Of a DNA stretch of 64,000 nt, positions 5,338 to 64,000 are shown piece after piece. The stretch is from positions 1,005,419 to 1,069,418 of the forward strand of contig JAJEKB010021159.1 in assembly GCA_022393335.1 (NCBI GenBank). Direction: 5' to 3'. The notes under the pieces are model-generated. The model was not told the origin of the DNA, did not search any database, and worked only from the letters and a program-made list of their open reading frames with translations. Positions within the stretch are counted from its first letter, which is position 1. Every line of letters starts with the position of its first letter. Made by a program: the position numbers and the translations under genes. The DNA comes from Macrotrachela quadricornifera (lineage: Eukaryota; Rotifera; Eurotatoria; Philodinida; Philodinidae).

Positions 5338-5351
5338 AAGTCTCCTTAAAT

Positions 5352-5573
5352 TACTACTATCGGAATTTAAAAAAAAGGCAGTCGAGCAAAATGCTTATAG
5401 CTTTTTAACTCCGATAGCGAGAGCCCTGTGGTCTTCATTATTCGACAGAAGGAACTGGAGTACGTTACCAGTACTTTCTTTCGAGTAATGAAGACCACAG
5501 GACCCTCGCTATTGGAGTTAAAAAGCTATAAGCATTTTGCCCGACTGCCTTTTTTAAAATTCCGATAGTAGTA
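5352..5573. repeat. Near-perfect palindromic MITE (222 bp)
   Basis: The left arm (5352-5440) and right arm (5486-5573) are almost exact reverse complements, starting tactactatcgg and ending ccgatagtagta, around a 45 bp loop. It contains no ORF of its own. It sits 14 bp from the 5' limit of the first membrane-protein exon, between copies 1 and 2, and so may have displaced the original promoter or first exon. The boundary TA could be a Tc1/mariner-type target duplication. Confidence 0.88.
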
Positions 5574-5763
5574 TTAATACTATCTAACGAGTTTTCTTGT
5601 GACGCACAGCAAACTTTAAAGCCAAGCAGTTATATAATCAATATTTACTGTAAAATATTTCTGAGATTATAAGTGATTGTTAATACTTATTCGATCTATT
5701 TAAAAGTACTTCGTCTGGAAACTCTTAATACCAATAAAATTGATGTTAACTATGATATTTCAT

Positions 5764-7083
5764 CTACTTACAATCTTGAACTTCTGATTTTTTACAAGCG
5801 TCAATAACAAAGAAAATAAGCTTGCCAAAACATGGTACAAGTATCCGAAGAATTTTATTAAGTCCACTACATACAGAAATGAGAAGTAACAATCCTACGA
5901 TGATATCACGACGTTGTACAATTGTATATGAACAAGAAATGGGTGCACATCCGCTATAATAATGATTGAAATCTGTATCATTATTGATCCATGTTTCCAT
6001 AAACATTTCTTGAAGTAAATATGTAAGTAATTGATTATTTCCAAATCGGGTTGGTACTGATGTATTAAGAGGTTTGATATTTAATGGAATTGGAGACTGA
6101 ATGAATATTGAATAAGATTTTTGAATATTTTTCAGATAAGTATCATTATACCACCAATTAAACGGTGATATTAAGAATCCAGCTAAAGGTACACAGCCAA
6201 TTGGTAATTCGGAAAAAAAGTGTTCAAATTGAAGAGAATTGGTTCCATTTGTATATATGAAGGTTTGTCCAGAGCAAGTGAGTGTGTTCGTTGGACAATT
6301 ACAGATACCGCTGGATGTGAAAACACCGTTGTGTACAGTAACACCTGTCCTGTAGGAAAGATCATTAATAATGAATGTACCATCTCTGCCAATGTTAATA
6401 CGAGAATTTGTATTTGCACCTGTTAAAAAAGAGTTGCAGATAAAAGAAATATTGATCCAATTAAACATATAATTAAAGTCGTATCGGATGTTATTAACAT
6501 AGGTTGTAATCAAGGCTTGAGTTTGTTCTATGAAAAGTGATCGTGAAAGAACATGATCATTTATAAATGGAGTGTTAGTAAATATACGATGCGCATCGTT
6601 AATGTTGGTTTTCATTAGTGAGCAAAAAGTAGCCAGAAGTTGAAAATAAGCGGCGCCTATTGTACGAAAGTCGTGTACCAACTCTGTGTTTGTCCATAGA
6701 GGTAAAAGAATAGGATCAAAAGATGCCAAATACTTGAGCCATGCTGATGAAACTAAATCACTTGAACATACTTGATGTAAGACGAATGTGACATTGAGAA
6801 AAGTTCCATATGGAATGGACACTTGTGAGCAAGGACATTGTAATGTGTCTGAATGGTCATTGTACAATTCGTCATAAGTAGCAAGAGATGGATGTGGAAT
6901 TGTCACTATTTGGTTTTCAACAACAAGAAATATGTAGAATCCAGCAGCAATCGAAGAAATAACGAGTAGAAAAATAAAAATACGTGTTACAAATTGTTCA
7001 CGAAAAATGTTGATAGGTGTACGTGGTTTTTGACTTTGAAAAAGATTTAAATTGACAATTTTTTGTTGAATGTACTGTAACAA
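5764..7083 (-). CDS. Two-TM cysteine-rich ectodomain protein (copy 2)
   Basis: Open frame of 439 residues. The order is a basic N-terminus; a hydrophobic span at about residues 33-57 (TRIFIFLLVISSIAAGF); the family block CPCSQVSIPYGTF...HQVCSS; a Cys-rich ectodomain with many N-x-S/T sites and an ICNCPTNTLTC cluster; CAPISC; and a second span at about 395-425. It aligns along its length with copies 1 and 3. The first codon of the open frame is TTG and no in-frame ATG is seen nearby, so the true start may be in a spliced upstream exon. Role unknown; predicted plasma-membrane protein with both termini inside and a disulfide-rich outer domain (inference from topology). Confidence 0.75.
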   Translation of the reverse strand: MLQYIQQKIVNLNLFQSQKPRTPINIFREQFVTRIFIFLLVISSIAAGFYIFLVVENQIVTIPHPSLATYDELYNDHSDTLQCPCSQVSIPYGTFLNVTFVLHQVCSSDLVSSAWLKYLASFDPILLPLWTNTELVHDFRTIGAAYFQLLATFCSLMKTNINDAHRIFTNTPFINDHVLSRSLFIEQTQALITTYVNNIRYDFNYMFNWINISFICNSFLTGANTNSRINIGRDGTFIINDLSYRTGVTVHNGVFTSSGICNCPTNTLTCSGQTFIYTNGTNSLQFEHFFSELPIGCVPLAGFLISPFNWWYNDTYLKNIQKSYSIFIQSPIPLNIKPLNTSVPTRFGNNQLLTYLLQEMFMETWINNDTDFNHYYSGCAPISCSYTIVQRRDIIVGLLLLISVCSGLNKILRILVPCFGKLIFFVIDACKKSEVQDCK

Positions 7084-7509
7084 TCGTCGCAGACGAATTA
7101 TGATAGCATGTACTATAAATATATCATTTATACATTGAGAAAATAAATTATATATTCATATTTTTATGTAATTATTAGATCAAAGCATTTAACAATAGAG
7201 ATAGAAGAAATAGTAGTCAGACATTCACTGACTACTTTTTCGTTTTGTCACTAATGCATGATATCCATAGGACAACAAATTCGTATGTTTCTTTTCTTTC
7301 ATTCTGTTGAGTTATACGATAAATGAATATAAAAATTCTTTTCAATGGATAACGTCAATCAGTGATAGAACGAAAAAATGTTTAGTGAGTGAGAGAGTGA
7401 CTGCTATTGCTCCTATTCATAATATATTATTATAGAAGTCACAGATTGCGAAACTGAATTCTATGAAGTTATAGTACACGATTGAAAATAAAAGGTAAGT
7501 TATTTTCAA

Positions 7510-8856
7510 TCAAGTAATATGAATTTTTGTTATTTTGTGAAGTAGCAGGTTAAAAGATTCTATCATAGAAATGAATTTTTGCTTACACCTCATTTGTAGA
7601 GACGGTCTTACAAGTGATCTATTGGTGTTTAATCCATCTCTGTTTTTCCATTTTAATATCATTTTGACTATAAAAAGTGTAATAAATTTCAGTACTAATG
7701 ATAAGCCACCAAAGACACCAATGATTGTAGTAACAACAAAAAGAATATCGAAACGATGTGTATATGAATAAGTACAATAAGCAGGATTGCATTGTAAATA
7801 AAACAAATCAAATCGAATTTCATTGATCATTTCATCAATCATTAGTTCATCCAAGAGCATTTCTACAGTTGCATTTACTGAAAAATGTTTGTTTGAATCA
7901 TTTAACAGTGGTTCCACAACTAGAGACAATGATGGATGCAACAGAGAAAGACACGTTCGATTGTAGTAGCATTCAAATGTAGAAGCAAGTATACCATCAA
8001 TAAGCAAACAATCAATTATTATTCCTGGTATGATGATTAGTTGATCATAACTATCATTAAAACTACCAAAACGTGGACAACCTTCATTGTTTATACAAGA
8101 ACAATTATCAAACATGCGTGGTGAAAACTTCGGAGAGGGGGGTCCATTCGAATTTACTGGTAGATTACGTAAATAATAATTAGTTGCCAAAGCTGAGACC
8201 ATTTGGTTTCCACTTGTTATGCGTCGAATAAATAATAAATTGCGACGAAGTTTTACTTGAGCTGCATTAATATGGCTGTCAAGAGTTGTCTGAACTTGAA
8301 TTCGAACATCTTCTTCAGTAAGTGCGATCGGAGTAAAAGTGGAGGATGCACTAAATCCAGCTATAATATTAGTCCATGTTTGATTGCTTATGACACAAAA
8401 ACTTGCGATGATTTGCCAAAAATTGCTAAGAGTTCTGCGAAAATCAACTGATGACACAAATGAACTGTTTTGTTGTACAAATACCAGATCAATCCATGTC
8501 TGTTGAATAAATTGACTAGAACAAATTTGATGAAAATTAACGTGAGTAGTGACAAATGTGCCATAAGTAATACTGATATTTGAGCAAGGGCAAGTAACAG
8601 TATTTGGATATTTGTTTAATAATTGCAAAAACCTTGGATATGAAGATGAGTATTCAATCTTGTTAACGGGTCGAATTATCAAAGCAGTAGCAATTATAAT
8701 AATGAGAATGGAAACACCTAATGAGCAAATGAAGATACGAGTGGCAAGTTGTTCCTTTGGGAGTGTTTGTTCATCACTCGTAGGCTTTTTGTAAAGATTA
8801 AGTTTAAGAAAAGATTGCCATAAACGATTGGCCAAATTGCGTGCCATTTCAATCAT
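7510..8856 (-). CDS. Two-TM cysteine-rich ectodomain protein (copy 3)
   Basis: 448 residues from a clear ATG at 8856. The N-terminal cytosolic segment ends in LATRIFICSLG, followed by a long hydrophobic span (about 40-62), the family block CPCSNISITYGTF...HQICSS, several N-glycosylation sites, a CSCINNEGC cluster, CNPAYC, and a second span at about 380-410 with a basic cytosolic tail about 40 residues longer than in copies 1 and 2. It is the best-defined member of the cluster because start, stop and both spans lie in one uninterrupted frame. Function unknown; the same-strand tandem arrangement suggests local duplication. Confidence 0.82.
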   Translation of the reverse strand: MIEMARNLANRLWQSFLKLNLYKKPTSDEQTLPKEQLATRIFICSLGVSILIIIIATALIIRPVNKIEYSSSYPRFLQLLNKYPNTVTCPCSNISITYGTFVTTHVNFHQICSSQFIQQTWIDLVFVQQNSSFVSSVDFRRTLSNFWQIIASFCVISNQTWTNIIAGFSASSTFTPIALTEEDVRIQVQTTLDSHINAAQVKLRRNLLFIRRITSGNQMVSALATNYYLRNLPVNSNGPPSPKFSPRMFDNCSCINNEGCPRFGSFNDSYDQLIIIPGIIIDCLLIDGILASTFECYYNRTCLSLLHPSLSLVVEPLLNDSNKHFSVNATVEMLLDELMIDEMINEIRFDLFYLQCNPAYCTYSYTHRFDILFVVTTIIGVFGGLSLVLKFITLFIVKMILKWKNRDGLNTNRSLVRPSLQMRCKQKFISMIESFNLLLHKITKIHIT

Positions 8857-18460: not shown

Positions 18461-19299
18461 CACATTCACCACGATGGGGTCCAACGGTGGACCCCACTAT
18501 ATTTTAACAAGAAACTTAACAGAAAAACGCTTTCTTTTCTTTTATTCTCAGGCGGAAGGTCACACATAATGTGCGATCTGCTTTGCTTTCCTTATTTTCA
18601 AAATCTTTTGTTACATAGCATAATGCTTCTCGTTAAAACAATCAAGACAAAAAAATTTGTTACAATCAGAACAGAAAGTTTTTATTCTCTTTGTTGTTGA
18701 ATGACACGCTTCTCTTGCTTGTTGTTCTCTATTTTTCTCGTAACAACCAACACAGCGTCTTCGGACATCGTAGTTAGATCCTTTCTTTTCTTCGAGCTTG
18801 TGATCGGCTGGTTTGCGCTTCAAATGATTTGTTGATTGTTGTCTCGGACCAGGTTTCAGCTTTTCGAACGGCATACCAAGTAGTAAAGATTGAACAAGAC
18901 TTTTCCGAAACTGTAAAATGGTCGTTTTGTTTGCAGCGTAGTGTGCCTTGTATATCAAATAGCTATTTACTATTGCTGTATCAAAAACCAATTTAAATGC
19001 TCCCTTTCGATACCACTTTATTGATCGTCTGAGACACGTGTAATAGGCTGACAGTTGATCAGACAGATCAGTACCTTGTCGTCCTTCATTATAATCTAGC
19101 ACTACTTGTGGCTTCATGATGGGTTCATTTTCACTATTGGTATTTCCAAAAGAAACGGTAGCGAGGACATTCGTCGTCGCTAACACTTTTATCCGTAGAT
19201 AGTGAAAAGGTTACTACATGCATTTATTAGAGGTTAACTTTTGACAGGAATGGATATTTCAAAGATATTTCTTAAGAAAACTGAATCGTGGTGAATGTG
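18461..19299 (-). mobile_element. Internally deleted piggyBac element (839 bp) with transposase C-terminus
   Basis: TTAA at 18457-18460 and 19300-19303 flanks perfect 14 bp TIRs, cacattcaccacga ... tcgtggtgaatgtg. This is the TTAA target duplication expected of piggyBac. The subterminal ggggtccaacggtggacccc is nearly palindromic. Inside, minus-strand frame 19186-18611 (191 codons) keeps only the C-terminal part of the transposase: VLDYNEGRQGTDLSDQ with the last catalytic Asp, and a C-terminal cysteine-rich domain (RRCVGCYEKN...TFCSDCNKFFCLDCF). The N-terminal half with the first two catalytic Asp is missing, so it is non-autonomous. Confidence 0.92.
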
Positions 19300-27467: not shown

Positions 27468-27620
27468 ATGTCGCACGAAAATAATTTTTCTCTTCATACA
27501 TTACCCGTGCTAATTGTCTATCGAATTCTCGATAATCTCGACGAATTGAATATTCTATGTTCGGTACGAAACGTTTGTACACGTCTTGACCAAATCGTGG
27601 ACACTTATCATCGGTATCAG
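27468..27620 (+). CDS. F-box-like first exon
   Basis: The ATG at 27468 opens a 51-codon exon ending in a CAG|GTAAAC donor at 27620/27621, phase 0. Residues 12-45 read LPVLIVYRILDNLDELNILC with SVRNVCTRLDQIV, an F-box pattern (LP-x4-xILxxLD-x4-LxxxxxVCxRLxxIV). F-boxes recruit Skp1/cullin ubiquitin ligases and are usually followed by substrate-binding repeats. The LRR exons that start 870 bp downstream are also phase 0, so one F-box-LRR gene is attractive, but connecting exons between 27621 and 28491 could not be established. The intervening frames contain stops. Confidence 0.6.
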
Positions 27621-28491
27621 GTAAACTTCATCTTTCTAATTTTCAGAATTTTCGAGACATACTACAGACAGGAAGAATTAGAAGTCACTCACGTACTCGC
27701 TTATTGCGACTCATTTTTGTTGTTCTTTATCTTGCACGAGGCGAGTACAGGAGAAAAATAATCGTTTTCTTGTCTGCCCACCGCTATATACGAAACATAT
27801 ATTACGAATTGCCTCATGTATTCGGTCTCGTACAAGTGGCAGAACGACAGGACTCCGAAAAAAGTATTAAAATGTTTTTTTTACCGGCGTATTGAACGTA
27901 TTTGGCACATGAGCTCCGCGAAAACGACGATCTTTTGTCCAATAAAAAACAGTATTTCTAATCTGAGAACACCACAAACAGCCAAGTTTAGACAATTGCA
28001 TACAAGTTACTTTTACGAACATTAAGACCCACTTTCGATGAGTAATAGAGAAAAATCGTTAACTAATGGTGAAACTATCTTCCAACATATGTCATCTCTA
28101 AATAGCTTTTTGGAGAAACTCTTTATTGTAAACATTTAAGATCCATTCCTCTTTGTCAGTATATATGTATTAATGCCTTCCAGGTCCGTACTAACAAGTC
28201 GATAACATTCAGCTTTACCTTCAGTCACATCTATAAAAACATACAATTTACCTCTTCTAAGATTCATTTTCAACCATTAAGCAGAAAAAGTTTCGTATGA
28301 ATATGAACACATTCAGTGTTCTCTGTGCATGTTTCTTTAGTTAATATTAAGTGAATCGGAAAATGGATCATTTCTATCAAACTCGGTGATTTCAGAAGAT
28401 TATAGAAATATTGAAAAATAATGTTCGAGATGTCGATACAAAAGCAATAGTATGATACTCATCCTATTTTTATTTTCCTCTTTACACACAG

Positions 28492-31152
28492 ACACTCGTC
28501 TCACTGGATCTTTATTTCAAATTTCTCAAAGTTGCCAAGGTACAATGTCTCGCTAATGCTTTACGGAATAATAAAGTAATACTCAACGTACGTTTATGTC
28601 TCTCATAAAGATCTTCTTGTCGACGCATAGACTCTGACTACATTGAATCTTGGAAGCAACTCGTTGGAAAACGTTGAAGCACAATTTCTTGCCGACACCT
28701 TGAGATATAACACAGTAATTTTCATTGTATTTTTATTTCTCTCTCTTATTTGGAACTTCTTGCCTACGCATAGACACTCATCACCCTTGATCTACACTGG
28801 AACGAAATCGGATCTGCGGGAGCAGAATATCTAGCCAACGCTTTGAAAATTAATTCGGTGATTCTCGTCGTATTTCATCAGTCTCCATCTTCATTTTCTT
28901 ACCTATGTATAGACACTCAAAACGCTGAATTTACAACAAAATCGAATCGGAGATGTTGGAGCACAACATCTCGCTGATGCTTTACACGATAATAAGGTGA
29001 TGCTCATCGTACTTTAATCTCTCTCTCATATTCGTCTCCTTTTTTATATGTAGACACTCACCACACTGATCCTCAGCAGTAAACTGCATGCTTATGAGCA
29101 TAAAATCGGAGTTGCAGGCGCAAAACATCTTGCTGATGCGTTAAAAATTAACAAAGTGATTCTCATCCTGTTTTTATCTTTCTCTCATATACACCTTCTT
29201 TTCTTCACATAGATACTCACCACTCTAGACCTTGAGCGGAATATAATCGACGATTTAGGAACACAACATCTTGCTAAGGCTTTGACAAAAAACTCGGTAA
29301 TCCTTATTGTATTTTCCTCGCTCTCATATCCATCCTCTTCTCTCTTTATATATAGACACTCACGACACTGAACCTTGCGTGGAATGAAATTAAAGATCAC
29401 GGAGCACACTATCTCTCTTCTGCTTTAAGAGTTAACAAGGTGATTTTAATTGTATTTTTATCTGTCTCATCATCATTGTATTCTCCATGCACAGGCACTT
29501 GTGACATTGGTTCTTGATAAAAATCGAATCGGAGTTGTTGGAGCGGAATATCTCGCTGATGCGTTGATAGATAACGAAGTGACTTCCACCCAGTTTTTAT
29601 CTGTCTGATATTCATCTTCTTCTATATATACAGACGCTCACCACACTGAGCATCGGCGGCAATAAAATTGGACATGTTGGAGCTCGACATTTTGCTAATG
29701 CCTTAGGGAAGAATGCGGTGATTCTCATGTTATTTTCACCACTATTACATTCATCTTCTTCTCTACATATAGACACTTCTCACGTTGAATCTCGGTGATG
29801 ATTATGAAGATAATAATAATAGCATCGGAGATGATGGCGCACAACATCTCGCTGATGCTTTAAAAAATAACAAGGTGATTCTCGTTTCATTTTCATTCCT
29901 CTCAAATTTACTTTCTTCTCGACACATATAGACACTTACCACACTGGACCTTCGATGCAATAGAATCGAAGATAATGGAGCAGAACATCTAGCTAATGCT
30001 TTGAAAAATAATACGGCAATTCTTATACTATTGTTATTTTTTTATATTCACTCATTCTTTTCTCTACTCACAGACACTCATCACACTGAATCTCAAAGGA
30101 TTTTCGTTGAGCTTTAGGCAAATTAAAGATTTAGGAGCACAACGACTTGCTGATGCTTTGGGATGTAATACGGTAATTCCCATTTTATTTTCAGTTCTTT
30201 CATATCTATTCATCTTATTCTCTACACACAGACACTCACTACACTAAATCTTCAAGGCAACAGAATCACAGATGATGGAGCAAAATATCTTGCTGATGCC
30301 TTACGAATTAACAAGGTGATTCTGATCGTATTTTTAACTCTCGCATATTCATCTTCTGCTTTCTGCATAGACACTAATCACACTGATTCTTCGGCATAAT
30401 AAAATCGGAGTCACTGGATCACAATATCTAGCGGATGCCTTGCGATATAATACAGTAACTCGCATCCTTTTTACACTCTATCATATTTGTCTCCTTATAT
30501 ATGTATAGAAACTCTTGTCACTGAACCTCGCTGACAATGGAATCGGAGATGTTGTGGCACAATATTTTGCTAATGACTTACAAAATAACACGGTGATTCA
30601 TATCTTGTCTTCGTCTCTCTCATATTGATCTTATTTTCTATATATAGACACTCAACACACTAGAGCTTGGTGGCAATAGAATCGGAGATAATGGGGCACG
30701 AATTATCGCTGATATGTTAAGAAATAACACAGTGATTTTATTCATCTTTTTATCTTTTTCATATGTATCTTCTCAATGCATAGACACTCATCTCATTAGC
30801 CATTAATTTCAATCTTATCGGAGATGTTGGAGCACAACATCTCGCTGATGCTTTACGGAGCAATAAAGTGATAGTTGTTCTACTTTTATCTCTCATATTG
30901 ATCATGTTTTGTACACGTAGACACTAGTCAGTTTGAATCTTGTAGAAAACGTTTTTGGAAGTGTTAAGGCACAAGAACTCGTTAATGCCTTAAGATATAA
31001 CACGGTAATTCTTGTTTTATTTTCATCTCTATCAAAATGGTCTTCTTTTCTACACATAGACACTCAAGGAATTATATGTCTTCCATGGGAATGACAACAT
31101 TTCTCGTTACGAACAAGAGAAATTGAAACGTCAGGACAATAGAATTAAATAA
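28492..31152 (+). CDS. Ribonuclease-inhibitor-type LRR protein encoded by 18 one-repeat exons plus terminal exon
   Basis: Exons start at 28492, 28631, 28774, 28913, 29054, 29213, 29356, 29495, 29634, 29773, 29932, 30074, 30232, 30371, 30509, 30648, 30784 and 30921. The terminal exon is 31060-31152 with TAA. Fifteen internal exons are exactly 84 nt (28 codons); the others are 102, 102 and 99 nt. All junctions are phase 0 and the frame is open throughout. Each exon is one 28-residue LRR of consensus TLTTLxLxxNxIGDxGAQHL then ADALxxNx. Introns are about 52-58 bp and similar to one another (GTGATTCTCAT...ACACATAG), so most units have a 139 bp period. The donor after 30015 is GC rather than GT. 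Such LRRs (RNH1/NLRC3-like) form a horseshoe for protein binding. The final exon encodes a short charged tail. The N-terminus is unresolved; the F-box-like exon upstream is a candidate. Confidence 0.88.
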
Positions 31153-33300: not shown

Positions 33301-33527
33301 AAAAAACATAACATTCGGCGTTTACACTCGGTGGCGATCAGTCGCATTATCGAGTGCTTTCGTTATTTTCTTTCGTCTTTCACAGCTTAACTTCTACGAA
33401 GTTTTTTCTTACACATTCAAGTCCTTGGACTTAAAAGTTTTTTGGTCTTTGTTCTTTGGTTTTTCTTTGTTCTACAAAATCACTCAGGCGGAACAAATAC
33501 TTATTTTATTTGGTGGTTCCTGTTGGA

Positions 33528-34967
33528 ATGCCTCCGAAAACAGGAGGGGGTGGTGCTGGTGGCAAGAAGCGTAATAGCAGCTCGGTTAACCAGCCACGTC
33601 ACTCGCCAACAACAGCAACAACAATGACCACAACATCACAAACAACCCGACAAGCTGGCAACAGCTCAATGGTCAATAAATCCGGCCAACGAAACTTCAG
33701 CATAGCTCCTCTCGTCCTAGAGGGAGTGAAACTAAGTAAGTTGGAACTGAATGATATGCTTAAGAAAGAACTGAAGGACATTAAAATTGCGGATATCCAA
33801 CTCGCACGCTCAGGTGCTTTCACCTTGTATGCCATTGATGTTCAATCGTTCAATCGTCTTTTGAACGAATTGTCATCAATTTTATGCAACAAAGGTCAAC
33901 CTAGTGCAAAAGTTTTTGTTCCTCGCTCGATCCAGCGGATCAAGGATACAGAAAAGTTGGCATTCGTCAAACGGGTCGATCTTGAATTATCGGAAGATCG
34001 AATAGCAGAAGCACTTAAGGCCGTTGGTCTTGATGTGACTAATGTTACTCGATTAACCGGTAAGGATGGAAAAACCCCTATTAGGACAGTCAAGGTATCA
34101 TTCAGTGACGTCAACAACAGAAACACGTTTGTGCATACTGGTTTACAAGTGGATTGCATGCACTTCACCGCTGAACCAGCATCACAAAATTCCAAGCCGG
34201 TGCAATGCTACATTTGCTTGAAGTACAATCATATAGCCAAGTACTGCAGAACGAAGCAGCAAGTATGTGCTCGATGCGGTGAAAATCATCGTATGGATCA
34301 ATGTACTGCTGTTAGTGAAGCAGCCAAGTGCTATAACTGTAAAGGTAATCATTTAGCCACTTCTAATGATTGTCCATTTTATAAGGAACAAGAAACAAGA
34401 ATGGTCAAAATGATTAACCAATACTCATCATCAAGCAAACCAGTAGCAACAGCACCGTCAATCTACGACATCAACCATTACCCACCACTACCGATCATGT
34501 CACAACGGCAACAAGATCACCTACAAAGTGACTTATTCGATGAATTGATCACTGTATTAAGTAGCAAAATGGAAAAAATCGTCGAAGAAACTACTAGCCG
34601 ATTATTCCAGAAGCTACAACAGAAAATCAAGAAAATCGAAAAGTCATTAGGTTTAACTGACAACAATCAACATGATGCATTAACTATATCAGATTCTGAC
34701 TTCAGTAATGATGAAGAATGTAATGTAGTTAAGCACATGAAGAGCAGACAAAGTCAAAGTGTGGATACATCTAAAACAACAGCATCATCGATAATTGTTA
34801 ATAGTAAGGCAACAACGGCTCCTAAGGTAGCTTCTTCATCAAAGTTACCAAAGAAGCAAAAAGAAGCATCAAAGTCGACCAAAAGAGGCCGTTCTTCGAA
34901 CAGCTCTCTAGAGGCAACGACAATTGATAGCAACAAAGACCTTAAAATAAGCAACGTCGATGATTAA
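33528..34967 (+). CDS. LINE ORF1, gag-like nucleic-acid-binding protein
   Basis: 479 residues from ATG at 33528 (MPPKTGGGGAGGKK). The frame is open further upstream, but only through non-ATG codons. Layout: a basic Gly/Ser/Thr-rich N-terminus with poly-Q/T codons; a central RRM-like region; three CCHC zinc knuckles (CYICLKYNHIAKYC, CARCGENHRMDQC, CYNCKGNHLATSNDC) at about residues 226-290; then a hydrophilic Ser/Lys tail with a helical segment (MEKIVEETTSRLFQKLQQKI). In this retrotransposon group ORF1 coats the RNA. It ends in GATGATTAA, overlapping the ORF2 start. Confidence 0.9.
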   Translation: MPPKTGGGGAGGKKRNSSSVNQPRHSPTTATTMTTTSQTTRQAGNSSMVNKSGQRNFSIAPLVLEGVKLSKLELNDMLKKELKDIKIADIQLARSGAFTLYAIDVQSFNRLLNELSSILCNKGQPSAKVFVPRSIQRIKDTEKLAFVKRVDLELSEDRIAEALKAVGLDVTNVTRLTGKDGKTPIRTVKVSFSDVNNRNTFVHTGLQVDCMHFTAEPASQNSKPVQCYICLKYNHIAKYCRTKQQVCARCGENHRMDQCTAVSEAAKCYNCKGNHLATSNDCPFYKEQETRMVKMINQYSSSSKPVATAPSIYDINHYPPLPIMSQRQQDHLQSDLFDELITVLSSKMEKIVEETTSRLFQKLQQKIKKIEKSLGLTDNNQHDALTISDSDFSNDEECNVVKHMKSRQSQSVDTSKTTASSIIVNSKATTAPKVASSSKLPKKQKEASKSTKRGRSSNSSLEATTIDSNKDLKISNVDD

Positions 34968-37643
34968 AGTATGCCACATTAATATCAACTCAATTACAAA
35001 ACACAAAGACGAACTCCTAGCTAGATTCTCCAAATACGACATCATTTCTGTGAATGAAACTATCTTGAAGAGTGAACGTCAGTTCTCTCTCTTGGGTTAC
35101 AATGTTTACAGAAATGACCGTGTCGGGAAGTCTGGTGGTGGGGTTCTACTGGCAGTGAAACAACATATCAAATGTCGAGAAATGCTGAACAAGACAACAC
35201 GTCAAAATGAAGCGATAGCAGTAGAGATTGAAACGCATAATTTCAAATCAATACTGTTAGCATCAATTTACGTGCCACCGACAGCGCAGATCGACATTAG
35301 TTTATTTCATGAACTGTACAGTATTAACAACAATTGTGTTATTGTAGGTGATCTTAATACCACATTATATGAAATAGGATCAAGGAAGACTAATGCAAGA
35401 GGAAGACAGCTTCAAGAATTAATTAAAGATGGCTTGATCGATTGTGTCGATGATGATAGTGCAACATTTGAAAAATATGATTATGAAGAGAAACTCGATT
35501 GAATATTAGCCAGTCAGCCTCTGCTATCATTTATATCAAATGTAGAAACACATCCTCAAATCGGCACAATTACTGGGCACAAGCCGTTAACATTTGATAT
35601 TCCTTTTGGAGTGCAACTAAGACCACTATCTTCAAGAATATCATTTAACTTTAAAGCGGCAAAATGGCCATCATTTAGAAGCGAGTTAGATCAGCAACTA
35701 AAGAGGTGGAGAAATGATCGTCGATTGGATTCAACGGCAGATATAGAAGAATATACGTCGTTCATTACCAACAGCATATTGGTAGCAACGAAAGAAGCCT
35801 TTCCACCAGTTAAACAAAAATGCATCAGCTATACACCAAGTGAAGCTTCGAAGAGCTTGATCAAATTAAAGCATCAAGCATACCGAAGATGGAAGAAGAC
35901 TGGAGATTATAATGATAAACATCAATATTATAACTTCAAGATCTTGTTAACAAATTCACTTAAGAATGACAGAAGAAACAACTTCAACAAGTTAATGTCT
36001 TCACTCTGTCATAAGAAGATGTATTCGGAAGCTGTTTGGCGAACGGTGCGCAAGTTCCACAACAAACGGAGCAAGCAATCCTATGCGAACATCATGAAAT
36101 ATAACAACACCACAGCAACATCAGACAAGGAGAAAGCGGACCTATTCGCGGATTATTTTCAAAATGAAGTCTACTTTCAATCTGCTGATACACTACCATT
36201 TCATGATCAAGTAACTCGTCAAGCAAGCATCATCAAGAATGGATTTATAACCAATTCAAACACGACTAGGTGGAAGAGAATCACTGTTAAAGAAGTTAAA
36301 TCTCATCTTAAACAACTTCGTAACAGCTCTCCTGGTCCAGATAACATCCACAATAGGTGTTTGAAAAACTATTCAGAATTACTTGTCCAGCATCTAACCA
36401 ATCTGTACAATCAAATTTTGAAGAAAGGTTATATTCCAGAAGGGTGGAAAAAGGCCAATATTATTCTTCTATTGAAACCGAAAAAAGACAAGCAACATCC
36501 GTCAAGTTATCGACCGATTAGTCTCCTTAGTTGCCTCGGCAAACTACTGGAGAAAATCATCAAACAACGGCTAATGCTTGAACTCAATCGACGAAACATT
36601 CTACCACAACATCAAGCAGGATTTAGACCAGGCAAAAGCACAGTTTACAACATCGTAAGACTAGAACGATATGCGGAAGGACAACTAAGGCGGGAACGTC
36701 GAAGGCGTAATTCAGCTGTCGTTCTCTTCGATATTAAAGCGGCTTTTGACTCGGTATGGCATGATGGCTTGATTTATAAATTAAATGATCTACGTCTTCC
36801 TCGATACATTATTCAATATATGATCTCATTTCTTAACAAAAGAATGGCTGCAATTGAACTTGAAGGTGTATTATCACGTCCATTCAACTTAATGAGCGGA
36901 ACGCCACAAGGATCTCCGTTGTCACCATTATTGTATATCATATACACGGCAGATTCGATGAATGGAATACCGACTCATACAGAACATGGGTTATTCGCCG
37001 ATGATACAGCACTTTGGACATCAGGAAACACCATGACAATCCTGAATACAAGATTACAACAATCCATAGATGCATTCGAAAGTTGGTGCCAGTCATGGAA
37101 ATTAAAATTACAACCAACAAAAACAGAGTTGGTCCACTTCAGCATACATCCAAGGAAATCGTATAAACATCCAGTGGAGGTGAAAGTTGAAAATACAATC
37201 ATTAAACCATTGGATTATACAAGGTACTTGGGTGTTATGATAGACAAACGACTCAGATGGCGAAGTCATCTCGATTATATCGAAAGCAAGATTACCCCTC
37301 GGATTAGTCTTCTTAGATATCTATCGAGAATTACGTACGAACCCAACAGCAGGACGATGATAAACATCTACAAATCAATTGTACGCACAATGCTTATTTA
37401 TGGTTATCCTGTTCTACTGACAGCTGATTCAAAAGTATGGAACCGAATGCAAGTTATGCAAAACAAAGCACTTCGAGCTGCACTCGGTCTACCAATGTAC
37501 ACATCGGTGGATTACATACATAAGATCAGCAATGTCCATAAGATCAAGGATTATGCAATAGGATTGCTGAACAAGTCAATTCAAAATGCAACTGTAAATA
37601 ATGATATTATCTTGAAGAATCATCTACAAGACATATTTAATTC

Positions 37644-37650
<7 letters not shown>
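34960..37650 (+). pseudogene. LINE ORF2, AP endonuclease-reverse transcriptase, one premature stop
   Basis: The frame of 897 codons is interrupted only by TGA at 35500-35502, in KLD-stop-ILAS where relatives have Trp (TGG). The N-terminal part is an exonuclease/endonuclease/phosphatase-type endonuclease (KVCHININSITKHKDELL, SVNETIL, VGDLNTTL, TGHKPLTF), which nicks the target. The reverse transcriptase follows: PGPDNIHNRCLKNY, SYRPISLLSCLGKLLEKIIK, HQAGFRPGKST, VLFDIKAAFDSVWH, SGTPQGSPLSPLLY and the catalytic FADDTALW at about 37000. The C-terminus contains the usual thumb/connection region. The single nonsense change suggests an inactive but young copy. Confidence 0.9.
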
Positions 37651-44576: not shown

Positions 44577-46379
44577 TCATTTACTAAGCAATCGAATTTT
44601 GTTGTTTTGAGCAAAAATTTGACTTAATATGCGTTCATAATGAATACAATTATTGTTAACATTGATATTCGATAAATATAGTTGAATTAAATCCGAATGT
44701 ATCCATAAAATTGGTTGTTTATTACAGGATAATTCAGAAAGGAAGTAACAATTATCATTTTGTGGTCGACAAATAAATATTGGAATATAATTACTAATTT
44801 TATATTCAAAACTTAAACGAATTTCAAATGCTAATGTAGACGTTGAACTTCGTTGAAGGCCTGCTGTTCCTTGCCACGGTTGTCGATGTAAATTTGGTCC
44901 AACTTGAATTAAAAATTGTCCACTATCTGATGATTTATTATGAATACTTAATCGTACAGTACCCGGTAATAAGAATTTTAAATCGTCTAATTCATATTTA
45001 TTTTTTGCTGCTGTATTTGATTCATATGAACAGATATATTTAATTGCATTTATTAAACTTGAAAATAAAACATGTCGTCTTAATAATTCATTTTGTTGTT
45101 GTTGTTGTGGTTCATAAATTTGAGCTAAAAATTTTAATTCATCATTTGGTTTAAGTTGAGCTTCAGCTAATTCTGGATGATAACGACTATGTAATATAGG
45201 TTCAATCATACTTGGTATTATGTCATTCAATGATAGTTCACGAACTTTAGCTAAGAAACTATCACGTGTATTACACATTAGTAATTCATTTTTTTTTTCG
45301 AAAAATGGTTTTGAAAATTGTTCAAATTTATTGGAATAGATTTCTTGACGTTTTCGAATAAATGTTTCTAATGCTTGTGGTTGTCGAATTTTCCATGCTT
45401 GTTCTAATGAATCATGTGATGTTAATATAACTTCATTACAAATATCTAATTGTTTAGCTATTTCATGTAAACACTTTGAATAAGCTTGAATATGTACATC
45501 TAAAAATGTATCATATGAAGCATATCGACGACCATCTTGTACGACAAATATTCGAATTGGTTTTATTGTAGCATTATAAGTTTCATCAATTGTTTGTATT
45601 AACCATTTAATACTACATTTAATAGACGATAATACGTATAACAATTGTTCTGCTTTATCAAAGTCTAAAACAATATAATTATGAGACAATTCTTGACGTA
45701 ATATGTCAACATGATATTCTTGAGTTTTAATATCTGTATATGTAGAATGACATTTTGGGATGAGAATCTTTAGAATAGCATTACGAAAATCTATAATTGT
45801 TTTTACATCAGGTTGTACTATCTTATCAAATAATTTAAGTAACATCTGAGTATAATTTTCTGTTGCAATCTTTATAGCTTTAACAATAGACCATAATTGT
45901 AATAATGCAACAGCTTCACCTAAATCCGGTAAATAGCCATCATTTTTTGCTCGATTTCGATCACGACATGGTAACATTAAAATAGAAAATGTTAAACCAT
46001 CCTTATGCATTAAACCATTTCTTATCAAAGATTCACGTAATTTAAGTTGTTTTTCATCATTTGGTATTGCACCACGTCGGATTCCACGACTAAATAATAT
46101 TTCAATAATTATGTGCACAAGAGTTATTCGTTGATTAGATAAATAAGACCATCGAGGTTCAGTTGGCGCTCGTTGTATGACGTTTTTTGCTATACGTTCA
46201 GCTAGAATTTTTGCTTCTTCTTTTATTTTATTAAAAAATAAAGTTTGAACACATTCGGTACTAACTTCAATGTATGGAAACCAGTGTGTTGTTGAAATAA
46301 ATTTATCAAATTGTGATTCTAACTGTTTGAATAAACTATGTGTACTTGAATCTGAATTATAATTAGTCGTTGTTGTCAT
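44577..46379 (-). CDS. DIT1/PvcA-like (isocyanide synthase family) protein
   Basis: 600 residues in one exon from ATG at 46379; the open frame extends 20 codons upstream without an ATG. Three blocks appear in the order found in DIT1_PvcA proteins: LPCRDRNRAKNDGYLPDLGE at about residues 137-155 (family PxKxxNRxKVxGxLPDxGE); IRIFVVQDGRRY at about 275-286 (family IxIxSDGRxF); and VRLSIHNKS...QFLIQVGP...QPWQG at about 475-505 (family RLSIHxx...KxxIxLxP...PWHG). PvcA-type enzymes convert the amino group of Tyr or Trp to an isonitrile using ribulose-5-phosphate; yeast Dit1 makes a dityrosine spore-wall precursor. The protein is longer than bacterial PvcA and closer to fungal sizes. Several family residues are changed (Gln for Ser before DGR, PWQG for PWHG), so activity is uncertain. 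It is divergent from the sugar transporter, with 481 bp between start codons. Confidence 0.62.
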   Translation of the reverse strand: MTTTTNYNSDSSTHSLFKQLESQFDKFISTTHWFPYIEVSTECVQTLFFNKIKEEAKILAERIAKNVIQRAPTEPRWSYLSNQRITLVHIIIEILFSRGIRRGAIPNDEKQLKLRESLIRNGLMHKDGLTFSILMLPCRDRNRAKNDGYLPDLGEAVALLQLWSIVKAIKIATENYTQMLLKLFDKIVQPDVKTIIDFRNAILKILIPKCHSTYTDIKTQEYHVDILRQELSHNYIVLDFDKAEQLLYVLSSIKCSIKWLIQTIDETYNATIKPIRIFVVQDGRRYASYDTFLDVHIQAYSKCLHEIAKQLDICNEVILTSHDSLEQAWKIRQPQALETFIRKRQEIYSNKFEQFSKPFFEKKNELLMCNTRDSFLAKVRELSLNDIIPSMIEPILHSRYHPELAEAQLKPNDELKFLAQIYEPQQQQQNELLRRHVLFSSLINAIKYICSYESNTAAKNKYELDDLKFLLPGTVRLSIHNKSSDSGQFLIQVGPNLHRQPWQGTAGLQRSSTSTLAFEIRLSFEYKISNYIPIFICRPQNDNCYFLSELSCNKQPILWIHSDLIQLYLSNINVNNNCIHYERILSQIFAQNNKIRLLSK

Positions 46380-46860
46380 TATGACAAAGTGTTTTTTCCT
46401 CTGAAGAAATAGGTGTATTGTTTTTAATAGCAAAGTCAAATGCTTTCGTCTATATATGAGAGATCTATGATATCAGAACAGAATATGTAAATGTATATAA
46501 TTACGTTGCTTTCAGTTGGTCTATAGGTCAAAATAAGCTAAAACACCAAATATGACTCATGTGCACATATATTTACATTTCGAACATAGAGAAATTTCGG
46601 AGTCCACATGTATGATCTCACTTAGTCATTTATGCAGGTGTGCACACCTTGAGAAAAAGAGAGTTATCTATGTAATATATTATCTTTTTAGTTTTTGTTA
46701 TTTCATACAAAAATGAAAAATTGCTTTGTCATTTGAAAAGAATTCGAATTTATCCGGCGGTGTCCTTTGTATGATTTGGACAACGAGAATTTACATATGA
46801 ACAAGTATTTGATCGTCGTGTGTTTAGTTTTAGATCAATTATTAAAAAACAAATCTAAAA
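46380..46860. promoter_or_regulatory. Divergent intergenic region, likely promoters for both flanking genes
   Basis: 481 bp separate the start codons of the minus-strand DIT1/PvcA-like gene and the plus-strand sugar transporter. No TATA box or known operator can be named with confidence. The call rests on geometry only. Confidence 0.3.
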
Positions 46861-49069
46861 ATGGCTGAAGGAAAAGTATGCACAATAAGAGTCATTGTTC
46901 TCAATTTTCTTAAGTTTTTTTTTATTTCGATTTTGGTAGGTATTTACTAAAGAACTTATAATAACAGCTTTAGCTTCTGCTTCTGGTCTACTTTCAGTTG
47001 GTTGGAATTCAGGTTGTATTAATTCACCTCAAAAACATATTATCAAATTTATGTCCGATGTATATTTCCATCGTAGTGGAACAGCATTACCCCATCATGT
47101 TATTACGTTATTATGGTCAATAACTGTTTCAATATTCCCATTTGGAGGTGCCATTGGTGGATATTCAGCTGGCCCTGTTAGTCGTCGATTTGGCATAAGA
47201 AATGGACTTTTGTTAACAAATCTTCTAGGAATTCTTGCTGCTTCTTTCATGGCAATATCCAAACTTGTATCATCACCAGAATTATTAATTATTGGAAGAT
47301 TAATGATTGGTATTGAATGTGGTTTATATTCAGGTTTGAGTCCAATGTATTTAAGTGAAGTTAGTCCAAAAAAGATACGCGGTCAAATTGGATCATTGAC
47401 TGCTATTTCTGGTTCTGTTGGATTAATGTTTGCCGAAATATTTTCAACACCAATTTTATTGGGAACTGAAAACTTATGGCCACTATTGATGGTGTTAGCT
47501 GCTATTCCAAGTGTGACACAATTTGTTTTATTGCAATTTTGTTTTGAAAGTCCACGATATTTATTAATTAATCGTAATAATGAATCACAAGCAAAATTTG
47601 TCTTAAGTAAATTAAGAGAAAAAACCAATGTTGATGATGAAATTAATGAAATTAAGCAAGAAGCCGAACATTTAATAAATGAAAAAAAAGTGAGCATTTG
47701 GGAATTATTTACGAATAATATCTATCGGTAAGAGTATACGATAATCATTTTCATTACTTTTTTTAAAGTGATCTATGACTTAGAGATTTAACGATTGTCG
47801 GTTAAATAGTTGAGCGAACAATTTCAGCAAAAATCGGACAAAATATTTTTGCAACTTTAAGAGCTTTCCATCCACAAATTGAATTGAAACCTAGACTATT
47901 TTTTTATTTTAATATTACTGTGTCGTGTTCAAAATCGAGTAAAAATGGTGGTTATTCTATCGAATTTAGTTGACATTGTTTAACTATCACAACTATTCAG
48001 TCTCCAGTGATTGGGTTTTATGAGATTTAAGATTTTCATTGAAAATTCTTTTTGTTGAGGTCAATAGTAATATTTAACAAAGGATCTTTCCTGGACATGT
48101 CTCTATCACTGGTAAAAAAATCAGCAAGTTTGCTCGAGTCGTAATGGAGATATAAGATTTTATTTTTGTATAATTACTTTTGGAACACCCTGTACAATGA
48201 ATAAATGAAGTTTAGGATATCTAAGTAGTAGAAAATCACGATCATCATGTCTGCTGTTTTTTTTCTAAAGGTTACCATTAGCTGTTGCAATTATTGCTCA
48301 TATATCAATGCGTTTTTCTGGTATTAATGGCATAATGTACTATTCAACAGCTTTATTCGAACAAGCTAATATTGGTAAAAATAGTTCATATGCAACAATT
48401 GGTGTCGGATTTATTTCGATTCTTGCGACAATTCTGTCTGGATATCTCATGGATCGTGCTGGTCGTCGTATTCTACATTTAACTGGTCTCTTAGGAACAT
48501 TTGCATGTTGTGTATTAATAACCATTACATTTATTTGTGCAGTAAGTAAATATCTCGACATTTGAATATTGTTCTTAACATATTTTTGCTATTTATTTAG
48601 CATTTAGTTGATTGGTTAAAATATTTTTCAATAACATTTGTATTTGCATTTGTTGTCTTTGTTGGTCTTGGTCCTGGAAGTGTCCCATGGGTAATCGTAC
48701 CAGAAATATTTGCTCAAGGTGCTCGTCCAGCTGCTATAAGTGTAGCGATGGTTACTAACTGGTTATCTAATTTTACTGTAGGATTAATATTTCCATTGTT
48801 AACTGTAAGTATATGATGGTTCATGCTTATACTTCGTAGTAATGATGATTCTTATGTTCATCATTTTCTAGGATAACATTCCACATTATGCATTTGTACC
48901 ATTTGCTATTATGACATTATTCGCAATATTATTCTTATACAAATATTTACCAGAAACAAAGAAACGAACATTTGAAGAAATAACAATGTCATTCAGATCA
49001 CACATGCGGCAAAATACGAAACAACTACAATCAAATTCTAATCATTATGAAATACTTGATATTTGTTAG
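46861..49069 (+). CDS. GLUT-type facilitative sugar transporter (SLC2A family, MFS)
   Basis: Five exons: 46861-46875, 46940-47727, 48271-48541, 48601-48804 and 48872-49069. All junctions are GT-AG with matching phases, giving 491 residues and twelve predicted membrane spans. Class I GLUT landmarks appear in order: GWNSGCINSPQK after TM1; GGYSAGPVSRRFGIRNG; GRLMIGIECGLYSGLSPMYL then SEVSPKKIRGQIG; ESPRYLLINRN; MRFSGINGIMYYST (QQLSGINAVFYYS in GLUTs, with Gln-Gln replaced by Met-Arg); DRAGRRILHLTG; GPGSVPWVIVPEIFAQGARP; and PETKKRTFEEI at the end. It should mediate facilitated hexose diffusion at the plasma membrane. Loss of the Gln pair in TM7, which contacts sugar in GLUTs, may change substrate. 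The 543 bp second intron is ten times the local norm and contains a mariner-type terminus. Confidence 0.92.
48176..48196. repeat. Mariner/Tc1-type terminus inside transporter intron 2
   Basis: ttacttttggaacaccctgta reads, in reverse, tacagggtgttccaaaagta, a typical Tc1/mariner-superfamily terminal repeat. The matching opposite end was not found inside the intron, so a truncated insertion is inferred as the cause of the intron's length. Confidence 0.5.
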
Positions 49070-53969: not shown

Positions 53970-56065
53970 CACATTGGGCCCACCGGTGGGCCCCACCATA
54001 TTTTAGCAAGAAAGTTCATAGAAGAACGCTTTTTCCTCTTTTATTCTTATGCGGGAGGTTATAAATAATGGACAGTCTTGTTCCCTTTCGCTATTTTTAA
54101 AACCATTTATTACATAGCATAATGCTTCTCGTTAAAACAATCAAGACAAAAAAATTTGTTACAATCAGGACAGAAAGTTTTTATTTTCTTTGTTGTCGAA
54201 TGACACGCTTCTCTTGATTGTTGTTCCCTGTTTTTCTCGTAACAACCGACACAGCGTCTTCGAGCTTGTGATCACCAAGTTTGCGCTTGGAATGACTTGT
54301 CAATTGTTGTCTTGGACCAGGTTTCAGCTTCTCGATGGGCATACCAAGGAGTAAAGATCGCACCTGACTTTCACAGAACTGTAAGATCTGTATATTGCTT
54401 GATGCATAAATTTCCTTGTAAATCAGATAACTGTTCACTACTGCAGTTCCAAATATCAACTCGAATGCCACCTTTCTATACCATTTTACTGACCGTCTTA
54501 GACATGTATGGTATGTTGATAGTTGATCTGATAAGTCAGTACCTTGTCTGCCTTCATTGTAATCGAGAACAACCTGCGGCTTCACGATGCGTTCATTCAG
54601 TTTATTGATTTTTCCAGTATTCACCACAGTTGCTGAATGGGTGGTTTAGTAGATATCATCAGAACGTCTCTTTTATCTTTCCACTTGATCAGTTTTATAC
54701 CGATTTCGTTCTGCTGCCCATAAACTTCACCACGCTTGAGCTTCTTCTGAACAACATCATGCCCAGATCCAGCACGATTACTCCTCATTGTTCCGATAAG
54801 ATACGTTTCCTTTTCCAACAAACGTTTTGCTAAAGAAATACCAGTAAAGAAGTTGTCAGCCACCACGGTTCGATAACATCCCGAAAGACCATTCAATAGA
54901 TTTATCACGACTGATTCAACATGTCCAAGACCTGCCATAGGATCTTGTTGACCAGTATAGATCATATAATTCCAGGTGTATCCATTGACAGCCGCGAGCT
55001 TGTATATCTTCACGCCGTATTTATGTGCTTTTCCAGGAATGTATTGTTTGAACGAAAGTCTACCTCGCCATGGTACCATACTTTCATCGATACTAGCAAC
55101 TGAGCCAGGCATATAGACTAATGTAAATCTCTCTTTGAGCAAATCTAAGAGCGGCCTCACCTTGACTAGCTTGTCTTGGTCCGAATTCTTGTTATTGTTG
55201 TTCGTGAAATGCCAAAACTTCAGGAGTAATTCAAACCTCTCCTTCGACATGGAATTTCTTATGATATCTAATCGGTACAATTGACTACTGCTCCAATAGT
55301 ATTTCAGTTTGGGCATTTGTACCAATCCCATCTCAATAATGATACCAAAGAACTTCCACATCTCTTGATTGTTGGTTGATTTCCATTGACGAAATTTCGA
55401 TCGTCTGCTAATCTCATGAGTTTGTGAATATTGCTCGGCATAGCGATTAGTTTCACGAACCATAAGATCAATAATTTCGTCCGTAATGAAATGGCGATAG
55501 CAATCGACAGGATTGATTGTGTTATCTTCTGAAGCAGAAACTACTTCTTCGACAAGTCCATAATCTTCCACGAATTCTGCATCAGGTTACGGTTCTATTT
55601 CATACCAACCGCTTGAATTCACCTCGTCAACAGCCATTTCTTCATCGGAACTTTCAGATTCCAGATGCATTCCATCAAAATCATCATCTAAAGAACTCAC
55701 TTCAGTGAGTGAGCTTGTGCTTTTTTCTGAATCGGTTCCTTCGAACGACATCTTTACGGTTCTCTAAATTCATTCGTCTTTTTATAGTCGAACGAAAAGT
55801 AGATAAGAAGAACAGAGAAAAATCTGGAATTTTCCTCATTCTTCTCGCAGGTGTCATGTATAACATGCGAAAGAACGAAAAATTGACTCAGGTAATTTTA
55901 GTTCTTTGCTAAAAATGAACCATTATGCGGTAATACAAGAGAGAGGGATCAATAATCAGTAGAAGATGACGAATGGATCATCAGATGCATTTATTCGAAG
56001 TGAATTATTCATGAAAATGACATCCTGTAGAAATTTCACGAGAAAATCGAATCATGCCCAATGTG
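53970..56065 (-). mobile_element. piggyBac transposon with both ends and broken transposase (2.1 kb)
   Basis: TTAA at 53966-53969 and 56066-56069 flanks 10 bp TIRs, cacattgggc ... gcccaatgtg. Next to the left end is a perfect palindrome, gggcccaccggtgggccc. Its ends begin CACATT like those of the deleted copy at 18461-19299, and the two transposases are clearly related, so they form one family with diverged termini. The coding region is intact in outline but carries a stop and frameshifts. Confidence 0.93.
54181..55751 (-). pseudogene. piggyBac transposase, disrupted
   Basis: ATG at 55751 starts an acidic, Ser-rich N-terminus typical of the family (MSFEGTDSEKSTSSLTEVSS). It is stopped by TAA at 55586-55588. 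The frame then continues from about 55585 to 54621: MRETNRYAEQYSQTHE-like region, VASIDESMVPWRGRLSFKQY (first Asp), TVVADNFFTGISLAKRLL (second Asp). A single frameshift near 54625 follows, then VLDYNEGRQGTDLSDQ (third Asp) down to 54181. The C-terminal cysteine-rich domain is still recognisable in DNA out to about 54120 but out of frame after a small deletion near 54260. At least three lesions mean it cannot encode active transposase. Confidence 0.92.
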
Positions 56066-63362: not shown

Positions 63363-64000
63363 TTAATGTTTATGATCATCGATGAAAAAATGATTGAAAC
63401 AGAGTACGCTATCACAGTAACTACAAGAAATAAAACAACAATCATTACACGTAGACAAAGAACAAAAACATTCATCAAAAGAAAAACACACGTCCTGTAC
63501 ATTATCAAAAGTACCGGGATCTTGTGGTAAATATCCTGTTGAGAACCAAGCATATCTTATCATCGACTTGAATTTCGTTGCTGACAATTGATTGTGTATT
63601 AAGGAGTGCATCTTCAAGATGTTATTTCGAGAAGTAATATCGATGTCTATGCGATCAATGGCTATACGATCACATATTTTTTGTTTTAAATATTTCCATT
63701 GCCGGAAAAAATAACGATCTAGCGGTTGAATATCTCCAGTTGTTTTTGGAGGAATCTGCATCCGTTCACATGTGATATCGTCGTCAAAGACACCATCATA
63801 GGAACTAGGATTTGTTTGACCAGACCAAGAGTCGAATAATAATAAGACATCTTCAGAAACTGAAGGTTGTAACACTTTTTCAGCCCAATAAGTAATATGC
63901 GTTTTAGTAAGTTTACCTGATTTGCTACATGATACATGAATATTATCAGCCTGATAAAGTGACCGTTGCACACGCGGTCCTAGTTTTCCCGTTGGTTCTT
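63363..64000 (-). CDS. DDE superfamily (pogo/Tigger-like) transposase, C-terminal part, cut by window edge
   Basis: The frame is open from 64000 to the stop at 63363. It contains VLLLFDSWSGQTNPSSYDGV (second catalytic Asp region), QIPPKTTGDIQPLDRYFFRQ (the I-P-x-x-T-T-x-x-x-Q-P-L-D block of DDE_1 proteins) and a helical tail. It ends in a Cys-rich module CFCSLSTCNDCCFISCSYCD followed by CFNHFFIDDHKH. That ending parallels the piggyBac cysteine-rich domains in this window. No stop or frameshift is visible in the part present, so the element may be intact beyond the window. Confidence 0.75.
   Translation of the reverse strand, partial: EPTGKLGPRVQRSLYQADNIHVSCSKSGKLTKTHITYWAEKVLQPSVSEDVLLLFDSWSGQTNPSSYDGVFDDDITCERMQIPPKTTGDIQPLDRYFFRQWKYLKQKICDRIAIDRIDIDITSRNNILKMHSLIHNQLSATKFKSMIRYAWFSTGYLPQDPGTFDNVQDVCFSFDECFCSLSTCNDCCFISCSYCDSVLCFNHFFIDDHKH

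Follow-up and report, generated by a model that had tools for sequence, protein, structure and literature searches.

A predicted F-box-LRR gene family of the bdelloid rotifer Macrotrachela quadricornifera with one leucine-rich repeat per 139-bp exon-intron module

Introduction

F-box-LRR proteins are substrate receptors of SCF ubiquitin ligases. Leucine-rich repeats (LRRs) also build the variable lymphocyte receptors (VLRs) of lampreys, in which an incomplete germline gene is completed from cassettes, and a uniform repeat with a hypervariable residue pair is known from TAL effectors. Jawless-vertebrate LRR segments are mentioned in an excerpt of PMC6642158, which further describes human NOD and NLRC genes with one 28-residue LRR per frame-preserving exon and reports exon skipping for NLRP3. 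Bdelloid rotifers have LRR multigene families of their own, a member of which is named in an excerpt of PMC3846280. Our searches of the open-licence PMC literature returned no description of an exon-module plan in rotifers.

Here, we analyzed a 64,000-nt stretch of the M. quadricornifera genome (contig JAJEKB010021159.1, positions 1,005,419 to 1,069,418; hereafter the window), which contains a predicted F-box-LRR gene. Like the NOD/NLRC genes, this gene encodes one 28-residue LRR of the ribonuclease-inhibitor (RI) type per frame-preserving exon, an arrangement that is a precondition for skipping (PMC6642158, excerpt). Since this exon plan has already been described, the rule of one LRR per phase-0 exon is not new. 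The window gene differs from NOD/NLRC genes in that its predicted protein lacks a NACHT domain and has an F-box-like head, in its mutually similar introns of about 55 bp, and in having many related arrays in one genome. The order of an F-box-like head and a following LRR domain recalls SCF F-box-LRR receptors, but here each repeat of the domain is predicted to have an exon of its own, and modules would turn over. With lamprey VLRs the gene shares LRR modules as units of diversity; however, the predicted germline gene is already complete and open from ATG to TAA, which differs from VLR-like assembly. The likeness to TAL effectors lies in their working only, as these differ in fold, are bacterial, and bind DNA, and a ligand code is not seen in the window family. 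The LRR families of Rotaria and Adineta resemble it in their 28-residue repeats and in the exon register of their read-through and module-loss protein models, and their heads presumably include F-box, RING/B-box, and U-box/kinase types.

Results

Exon-intron structure of the window gene

The predicted gene occupies positions 27468-31152 of the plus strand and reads from ATG to TAA without a stop across 602 codons once its exons are joined; at that base composition, the chance of 531 stop-free codons is about 3e-18. Exon 1 (27468-27620; 51 codons) encodes the F-box-like head and ends in CAG before the donor GTAAAC. It is followed by intron 1 (27621-28491; 871 bp), in whose three frames we recognized no domain-like stretch by eye. 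A hidden exon in this interval was rejected on these grounds and because the head-to-LRR join is the same as in the Adineta proteins P0021 and P0082.

The 3' part of the gene consists of 18 exon-like segments, from 28492 to 31004, each of which corresponds to one LRR. Fifteen of them are 84 nt long, namely LRR exons 1 to 4 (28492-28575, 28631-28714, 28774-28857, and 28913-28996), 6 to 9 (29213-29296, 29356-29439, 29495-29578, and 29634-29717), 11 (29932-30015), and 13 to 18 (30232-30315, 30371-30454, 30509-30592, 30648-30731, 30784-30867, and 30921-31004). The three longer exons encode repeats of 33-34 residues, in which the extra residues always fall at the same variable loop: exons 5 (29054-29155; loop positions 8-11) and 10 (29773-29874) have 102 nt and six additional residues each, and exon 12 (30074-30172) has 99 nt and five. 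The last exon (31060-31152) contributes 30 codons, comprising a partial repeat and a charged tail, and the TAA. Every LRR exon length is divisible by 3 and every join is in phase 0, which confirms from the sequence what the initial annotation had reported, namely 18 one-repeat exons, 15 of them of 84 nt, all in phase 0. Removal of the introns in this phase is predicted for the window gene.

Each LRR exon is followed by a short intron; these 18 introns (28576-31059) begin with GT in 17 cases and with GC in one (30016, the sole GC-AG intron, after LRR exon 11), and all 18 end in AG. They measure 52-59 bp, a slightly wider range than the 52-58 bp first given, and their reported mutual similarity was borne out (see below). 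According to an excerpt of PMC3464624, most introns of bdelloid tubulin genes have 42-70 nt, so the length of the window introns alone is ordinary. As had been noted, the starts of successive exons lie mostly 136-143 bp apart (15 of 18 steps); the other three steps measure 158-159 bp, and the strongest autocorrelation period of the array is 139 bp. Rfam and tRNA scans yielded no match, and a scan of viral contigs returned no relative.

F-box heads and protein identity

Exon 1 of the window gene matches the Pfam F-box-like family with an E-value of 4e-4 and 20.5 bits, below the cut-off of 24.3, and a second F-box family with 17.0 against 20.5. These scores are lower than those of four short sibling heads that we scanned, all of which exceed the PF00646 cut-off and three of which exceed that of PF12937. 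Of the 18 distinct arrays described below, 17 have an F-box head upstream, which is of a short type in 14 and of a long type in three (L010, L011, and L022), where it resembles the Adineta vaga protein P0098. L026, the one array for which no head was found, has less than 3 kb of contig upstream, and the head of its partner L012 lies about 5 kb upstream. Heads are located up to several kb from the arrays (more than 6 kb in L027), and their joining to the sibling arrays is a prediction. The head is a putative SKP1-binding domain.

The window protein matches LRR_6 with an E-value of 1.5e-55. Its repeats are of the ribonuclease-inhibitor type, and 15 of 18 have 28 residues, in line with the 28-29-residue LxxLxLxxN repeats of this type. 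Among proteins of solved structure, the closest in sequence is a flagellar LRR protein of a trypanosome, after which come an RI-like protein, NLRP14, and ribonuclease inhibitor. A structural model of the relative P0082 displays strand-helix units, with block pLDDT values of 85-97 over residues 51-200 and a whole-model mean of only 57; in Foldseek, its top match is an axonemal LRR protein, with NOD2, NLRP, and RI among the matches. Together, the sequence matches and the relative's model, which is confident only over the repeats, suggest an RI-like fold for the window repeats. A Pfam scan of the 602-aa model returned LRR families only and no NACHT domain, so the protein is not an NLR receptor. 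Its best protein relatives, among the best 120 of 1339 matches, are proteins from Rotaria and Adineta, unnamed metagenome proteins, fungal proteins, and vertebrate NLRC3. Based on the Pfam accessions among the matches listed, the heads of the relatives presumably include F-box, RING/B-box, U-box/kinase, and other domains; ubiquitin-ligase heads thus seem to recur among them.

Sibling arrays across the genome

Searching the 450-Mb genome of the species with the DNA of the gene returned 59 matched stretches when 40 of 588 candidates were scored; this number counts the window itself, and one array can contribute several pieces. The arrays read were that of the window and those of 19 sibling loci (L009-L028). 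In L015/L016 and L019/L020 every unit is identical, leaving 18 distinct arrays among the 20. Array size ranges from 12 to 20 units, with 322 units in the 20 loci, 291 of which could be parsed; the other 31 had no acceptor (18) or no donor (13). The parser admitted only exon lengths divisible by 3, so the phase 0 of the siblings is partly built in; under this setting, they show the NOD/NLRC-type exon plan, as the window array does. Nearly all parsed exons (287 of 291) are exactly 84 nt long and none contains a stop, and introns are exactly 55 bp in 201 of 271 cases across the 20 arrays. A 37-base motif spanning the intron tail and exon head occurred 192 times with at most three mismatches, compared to 0 occurrences of the reversed control.

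Steps of exactly 139 bp account for 177 of 236 in the non-redundant siblings, as opposed to 7 of 17 internal steps in the window. Of the 20 arrays, that of the window follows the period least strictly, which corrects the clock-like regularity ascribed to it; the period is sharper in the siblings.

Two further features of the genome were observed. On a single contig, two arrays with all units identical lie about 65.8 kb apart (G000:C4433:722214-724735 and 788014-790535), which would reflect either a very recent segmental duplication or an assembly duplication. In addition, uninterrupted LRR frames of 1073-2716 aa occur on G000:C3948, C4344, and C4511 (loci L001, L002, L004, and L007), so intronless LRR arrays coexist in the same genome with arrays of one exon per repeat; the former may have arisen as processed copies or may form a family of their own.

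Intron similarity and age of the window units

The window introns have a mean pairwise identity of 0.649, compared to 0.463 after internal shuffling (s.d. 0.017, 30 shuffles), 0.416 for decoys drawn as samples of 183 GT..AG window stretches, and 0.477 for composition-matched decoys (n=10 only). When similarity is normalized for composition, the intron interiors reach 0.34-0.43, depending on masking, versus 0.40 at fourfold sites. Since the introns are roughly as similar to one another as fourfold sites are, a special constraint is not needed to account for the likeness of the window introns. Between sibling loci, introns are 0.749 identical versus 0.682 for fourfold sites, and within sibling loci the values are 0.78-0.79 versus 0.76. 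Because the sibling introns are somewhat more alike than fourfold sites, mild constraint or homogenization is possible there.

The units of the window array are old, their tree is almost a star, and nothing in them points to recent duplication: internal branches make up 13% of the unit tree, similarity among units shows no dependence on distance and no exon-intron correlation, and the best pair of equal length is only 0.71 identical. Recent step-wise duplication in the window array was accordingly rejected. An origin by tandem duplication of an exon-plus-intron unit, as initially proposed, is supported by the likeness of the introns and by the recurrence of the 139-bp unit in the siblings, but the window itself retains no sign of a recent event of this kind.

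Unit number in near-identical arrays

Among the distinct arrays there are five pairs whose units correspond one to one at a mean identity of 93-96%; these would be either alleles or recent duplicates, and we refer to them as allelic-like. L012 and L026 have 17 and 12 units and lengths of 2362 and 1667 bp, the difference of 695 bp being 5 x 139. Units 1-5 and the last five are common to both (0.91-0.99), and between them lie 7 and 2 units, respectively, without counterparts; the flanks are collinear at 91-96% identity. Similarly, L021 and L027 have 15 and 12 units and differ by 425 bp, or three units; their flanks are largely collinear (88-95%), and L027 has an additional stretch of about 5 kb upstream. 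Unit numbers are equal in L013/L016 (18/18) and L017/L018 (14/14), and L010 and L011 have 20 and 15 units, a difference that may stem from the location of L011 at a contig end. The comparison of repeat number between alleles thus gave a mixed result, with two of the five pairs differing (by 5 and 3 units) and two being equal. Siblings thus differ in length by entire units, as had been suggested (17 against 12 in one pair, 15 against 12 in the other), but this is not seen at the window, of which there is no near-identical copy among the scored matches (40 of 588). Assembly error is a possible cause of the differences in unit number.

Hypervariability of residues 8 and 9

Residues 8 and 9 of the repeat occur as 116 dipeptides in 240 non-redundant units, with entropies of 3.75 and 4.01 bits. 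For codons 8-9, pN and pS are 0.66 v 0.37 between loci (omega ~3.2) and 0.62 v 0.30 within loci (~3.4), values that are rough because, under the Nei-Gojobori method with Jukes-Cantor correction, a pN of ~0.66 is near saturation; positions outside 3, 4, 6, 8, 9, and 11 have an omega of 0.36-0.42. In the window array, positions 8, 9, and 11 together show an omega of 1.9 (1.6-2.4 when 12 of 15 repeats are drawn), position 11 having been added to the set only after inspection of the data. Positive selection at the concave-face positions had been put forward for examination; at 3, 4, 6, 8, and 9 as a group, the window omega is only 0.98, which does not support positive selection across the whole concave face of this array.

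Analyzing recent within-array copies, defined as 20 pairs with at most 16 differences in 139 (codons 8-9 counted in the limit; the pairs share units and are not independent), we found 0.258 changes per site at codons 8-9, compared to 0.096 for introns and 0.083 for the other exon positions; in 6 of the 20 pairs, codons 8-9 are unchanged. Among within-array units whose introns differ by less than 6%, residues 8-9 differ in 83% (15 pairs), as opposed to 7% (49 pairs) among allelic-like units, whose mean intron difference is 5.8%. Between allelic-like units, there is no excess at codons 8-9 (pN 0.027 v pS 0.082; 59 pairs) and no acceleration relative to introns (0.064 against 0.071; 47 pairs). 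Consequently, there is no sign of an arms race now under way between alleles. In our reading, new module copies would diverge at residues 8-9 and then be kept, so that present variety would lie in which modules an array holds. Residues 8 and 9, along with 6 and 11, probably face the ligand and determine specificity. The diversifying change at codons 8 and 9 lends some support to the putative recognition role of the arrays.

Module differences in predicted relatives and splice donors

The Rotaria isoforms considered here are gene predictions. An excerpt of PMC7943196 states that Rotaria gene sets were made by BRAKER with aligned RNA-seq, and the proteins compared here would belong to these sets. 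The R. magnacalcarata proteins P0060 and P0115, both listed with a contig of 79,364, are identical except for 28 residues, a difference that has a unique placement and starts at repeat position 1, which is the exon register of the window. In R. socialis, P0001 and P0038 differ by one clean loss of 84 residues, and P0001, P0002, P0006, and P0038 (contig of 269,401) have common heads, with whole modules dropped or replaced. Between P0097 and P0111, the differences include the duplication of one 28-aa repeat. Across 48 near-identical pairs from 48 bdelloid-named matches, 55 of 102 internal gaps of at least 5 residues are multiples of 28 and 47 are not; an earlier hand-picked set of 15 pairs gave 16 of 37. 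Since many gaps are not multiples of 28, other indels and mispredictions must be frequent, and we base the argument on the exact Rotaria cases. These predicted proteins, differing by one or three 28-aa modules, suggest exon skipping in the relatives, with false joins between near-identical exons as a possible alternative source.

Read-through peptides of relatives, five of which were picked by eye, were compared with the window introns using 500 shuffles each. The P0097/P0111 read-through resembles the window introns (mean 5.6 identities vs 2.97 shuffled, 0/500), and a weaker likeness is found for P0098 (0/500) and P0054 (2/500). P0021 (446/500) and P0122 (257/500) displayed no likeness beyond shuffles and were dismissed as shared introns. 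Read-through and module-loss models of the relatives show the exon register of the window.

At the donors, position +5 is T in 16 and C in 2 of the 18 short window introns; G is absent from this position in the window and present in 5 of the 291 parsed donors of the 20 arrays. As a local control, we used a nearby gene at 46940-49069, named sugar-transporter-like by reading, whose three donors are GTAAG. Matches to CAGGTAAGT (of 9) average 5.2 for the array donors and amount to 6 for the transporter donors and 7 for window intron 1, a small gap. Weak donors would favor skipping, and we regard this as a lead.

Neighborhood of the gene

Elsewhere in the window, a single-exon DIT1/PvcA-like gene (dityrosine/pyoverdine biosynthesis) lies on the minus strand at 44577-46439. 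Its ORF is 75% identical to a Didymodactylos carnosus sequence, 67% to Rotaria socialis, and 49% to A. vaga; the seven named among its 14 matches are all bdelloid, and the gene was possibly acquired. Transposon genes are present at 18611-19186, 33456-37650, 54181-55571, and 63363-63971, the types in the window being a LINE-like two-ORF element (by reading only) and IS4/piggyBac-type (DDE_Tnp_1_7) and Tc5-type transposases. A row of membrane-protein-like ORFs on the minus strand (641-8856) look alike by eye, and the three that were scanned gave no Pfam match. At the window edge (1-396), tandem repeats of 9 bp (TATCTCCTA) and 42/92 bp are found.

Discussion

The array, its F-box-like head, the 17 distinct siblings, the whole-module differences in two pairs, and the hypervariable codons 8-9 together point to likely recognition receptors that change by ready-made repeats. 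We consider it fairly probable that these genes encode F-box receptors of ubiquitin ligases whose LRR array is composed of 139-bp exon-intron modules and evolves by module turnover. The predicted F-box-LRR protein would bring targets to a ubiquitin ligase, and residues 8 and 9 of each repeat would contact the ligand. One 139-bp module would equal one repeat, with whole modules being gained, lost, or swapped, and the combination of phase-0 joins throughout and matching introns would let unequal exchange, conversion, or exon skipping alter the array with the frame intact. A more far-reaching version, in which bdelloids have a modular recognition system of dozens of F-box receptors (with RING/B-box and U-box relatives), readable variable residue pairs, and modules both exchanged within and between arrays and chosen at splicing, by which these largely asexual animals would renew their receptors, seems to us doubtful.

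Module turnover has to be weighed against an ordinary F-box-LRR family, in which all exons are always spliced in, birth and death of units are slow and neutral, and residues vary because each protein has its own fixed partner, not because novelty is selected. Such a family would agree with the old, star-like window units that show neither distance dependence nor exon-intron correlation, with the allelic-like units that lack a codon 8-9 excess, and with the two near-identical pairs of equal unit number; moreover, an exon plan of one LRR per phase-0 exon is familiar from the human NOD/NLRC genes (PMC6642158, excerpt). It is harder to reconcile with codons 8-9 differing 2.7x as much as introns in recent within-array copies, or with the middle block of L012/L026, which has been replaced (7 v 2 non-matching units) and not just trimmed. 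On balance, we regard the ordinary family as possible, if rather unlikely. Still more improbable is that the array is decayed or untranscribed and has no product. The transposon genes within the window and an F-box score below those of four sibling heads could be read in this direction, but the 602 open codons, the good splice sites, the overall omega of 0.44 between the window repeats, and the invariance of leucines 2, 5, and 24 and Asn-27 among the 15 repeats of 84 nt make such decay hardly credible.

A different emphasis would place alternative splicing at the center: donors that are weak and alike (GTRAT, with G seldom at +5), together with phase-0 exons that can stand in for one another, would yield many variants per gene. 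The near absence of G at +5 from window and family donors, next to the GTAAG of the transporter, is in agreement with this, as are the predicted Rotaria proteins in which, behind a common head, entire 28-aa modules are missing or exchanged, drawn as they would be from gene sets informed by aligned RNA-seq (PMC7943196, excerpt; membership presumed). However, misaligned reads across near-identical exons could create false isoforms, the shared intron consensus may compensate for donors that look weak, and the gap in consensus matches is small. We therefore judge a central role of splicing to be quite unlikely.

What appears to be new is the combination of features: an F-box family built from uniform exon-intron modules of 139 bp, a di-residue that varies from module to module, and turnover of the modules. 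If this is true, whole repeats would be swapped as exons at no cost to the reading frame, with variation concentrated on two residues of each repeat. It would provide a testable way for animals with little or no sex to keep changing their recognition repertoire, and the many parallel arrays in one genome would allow module gain, loss, and exchange to be measured.
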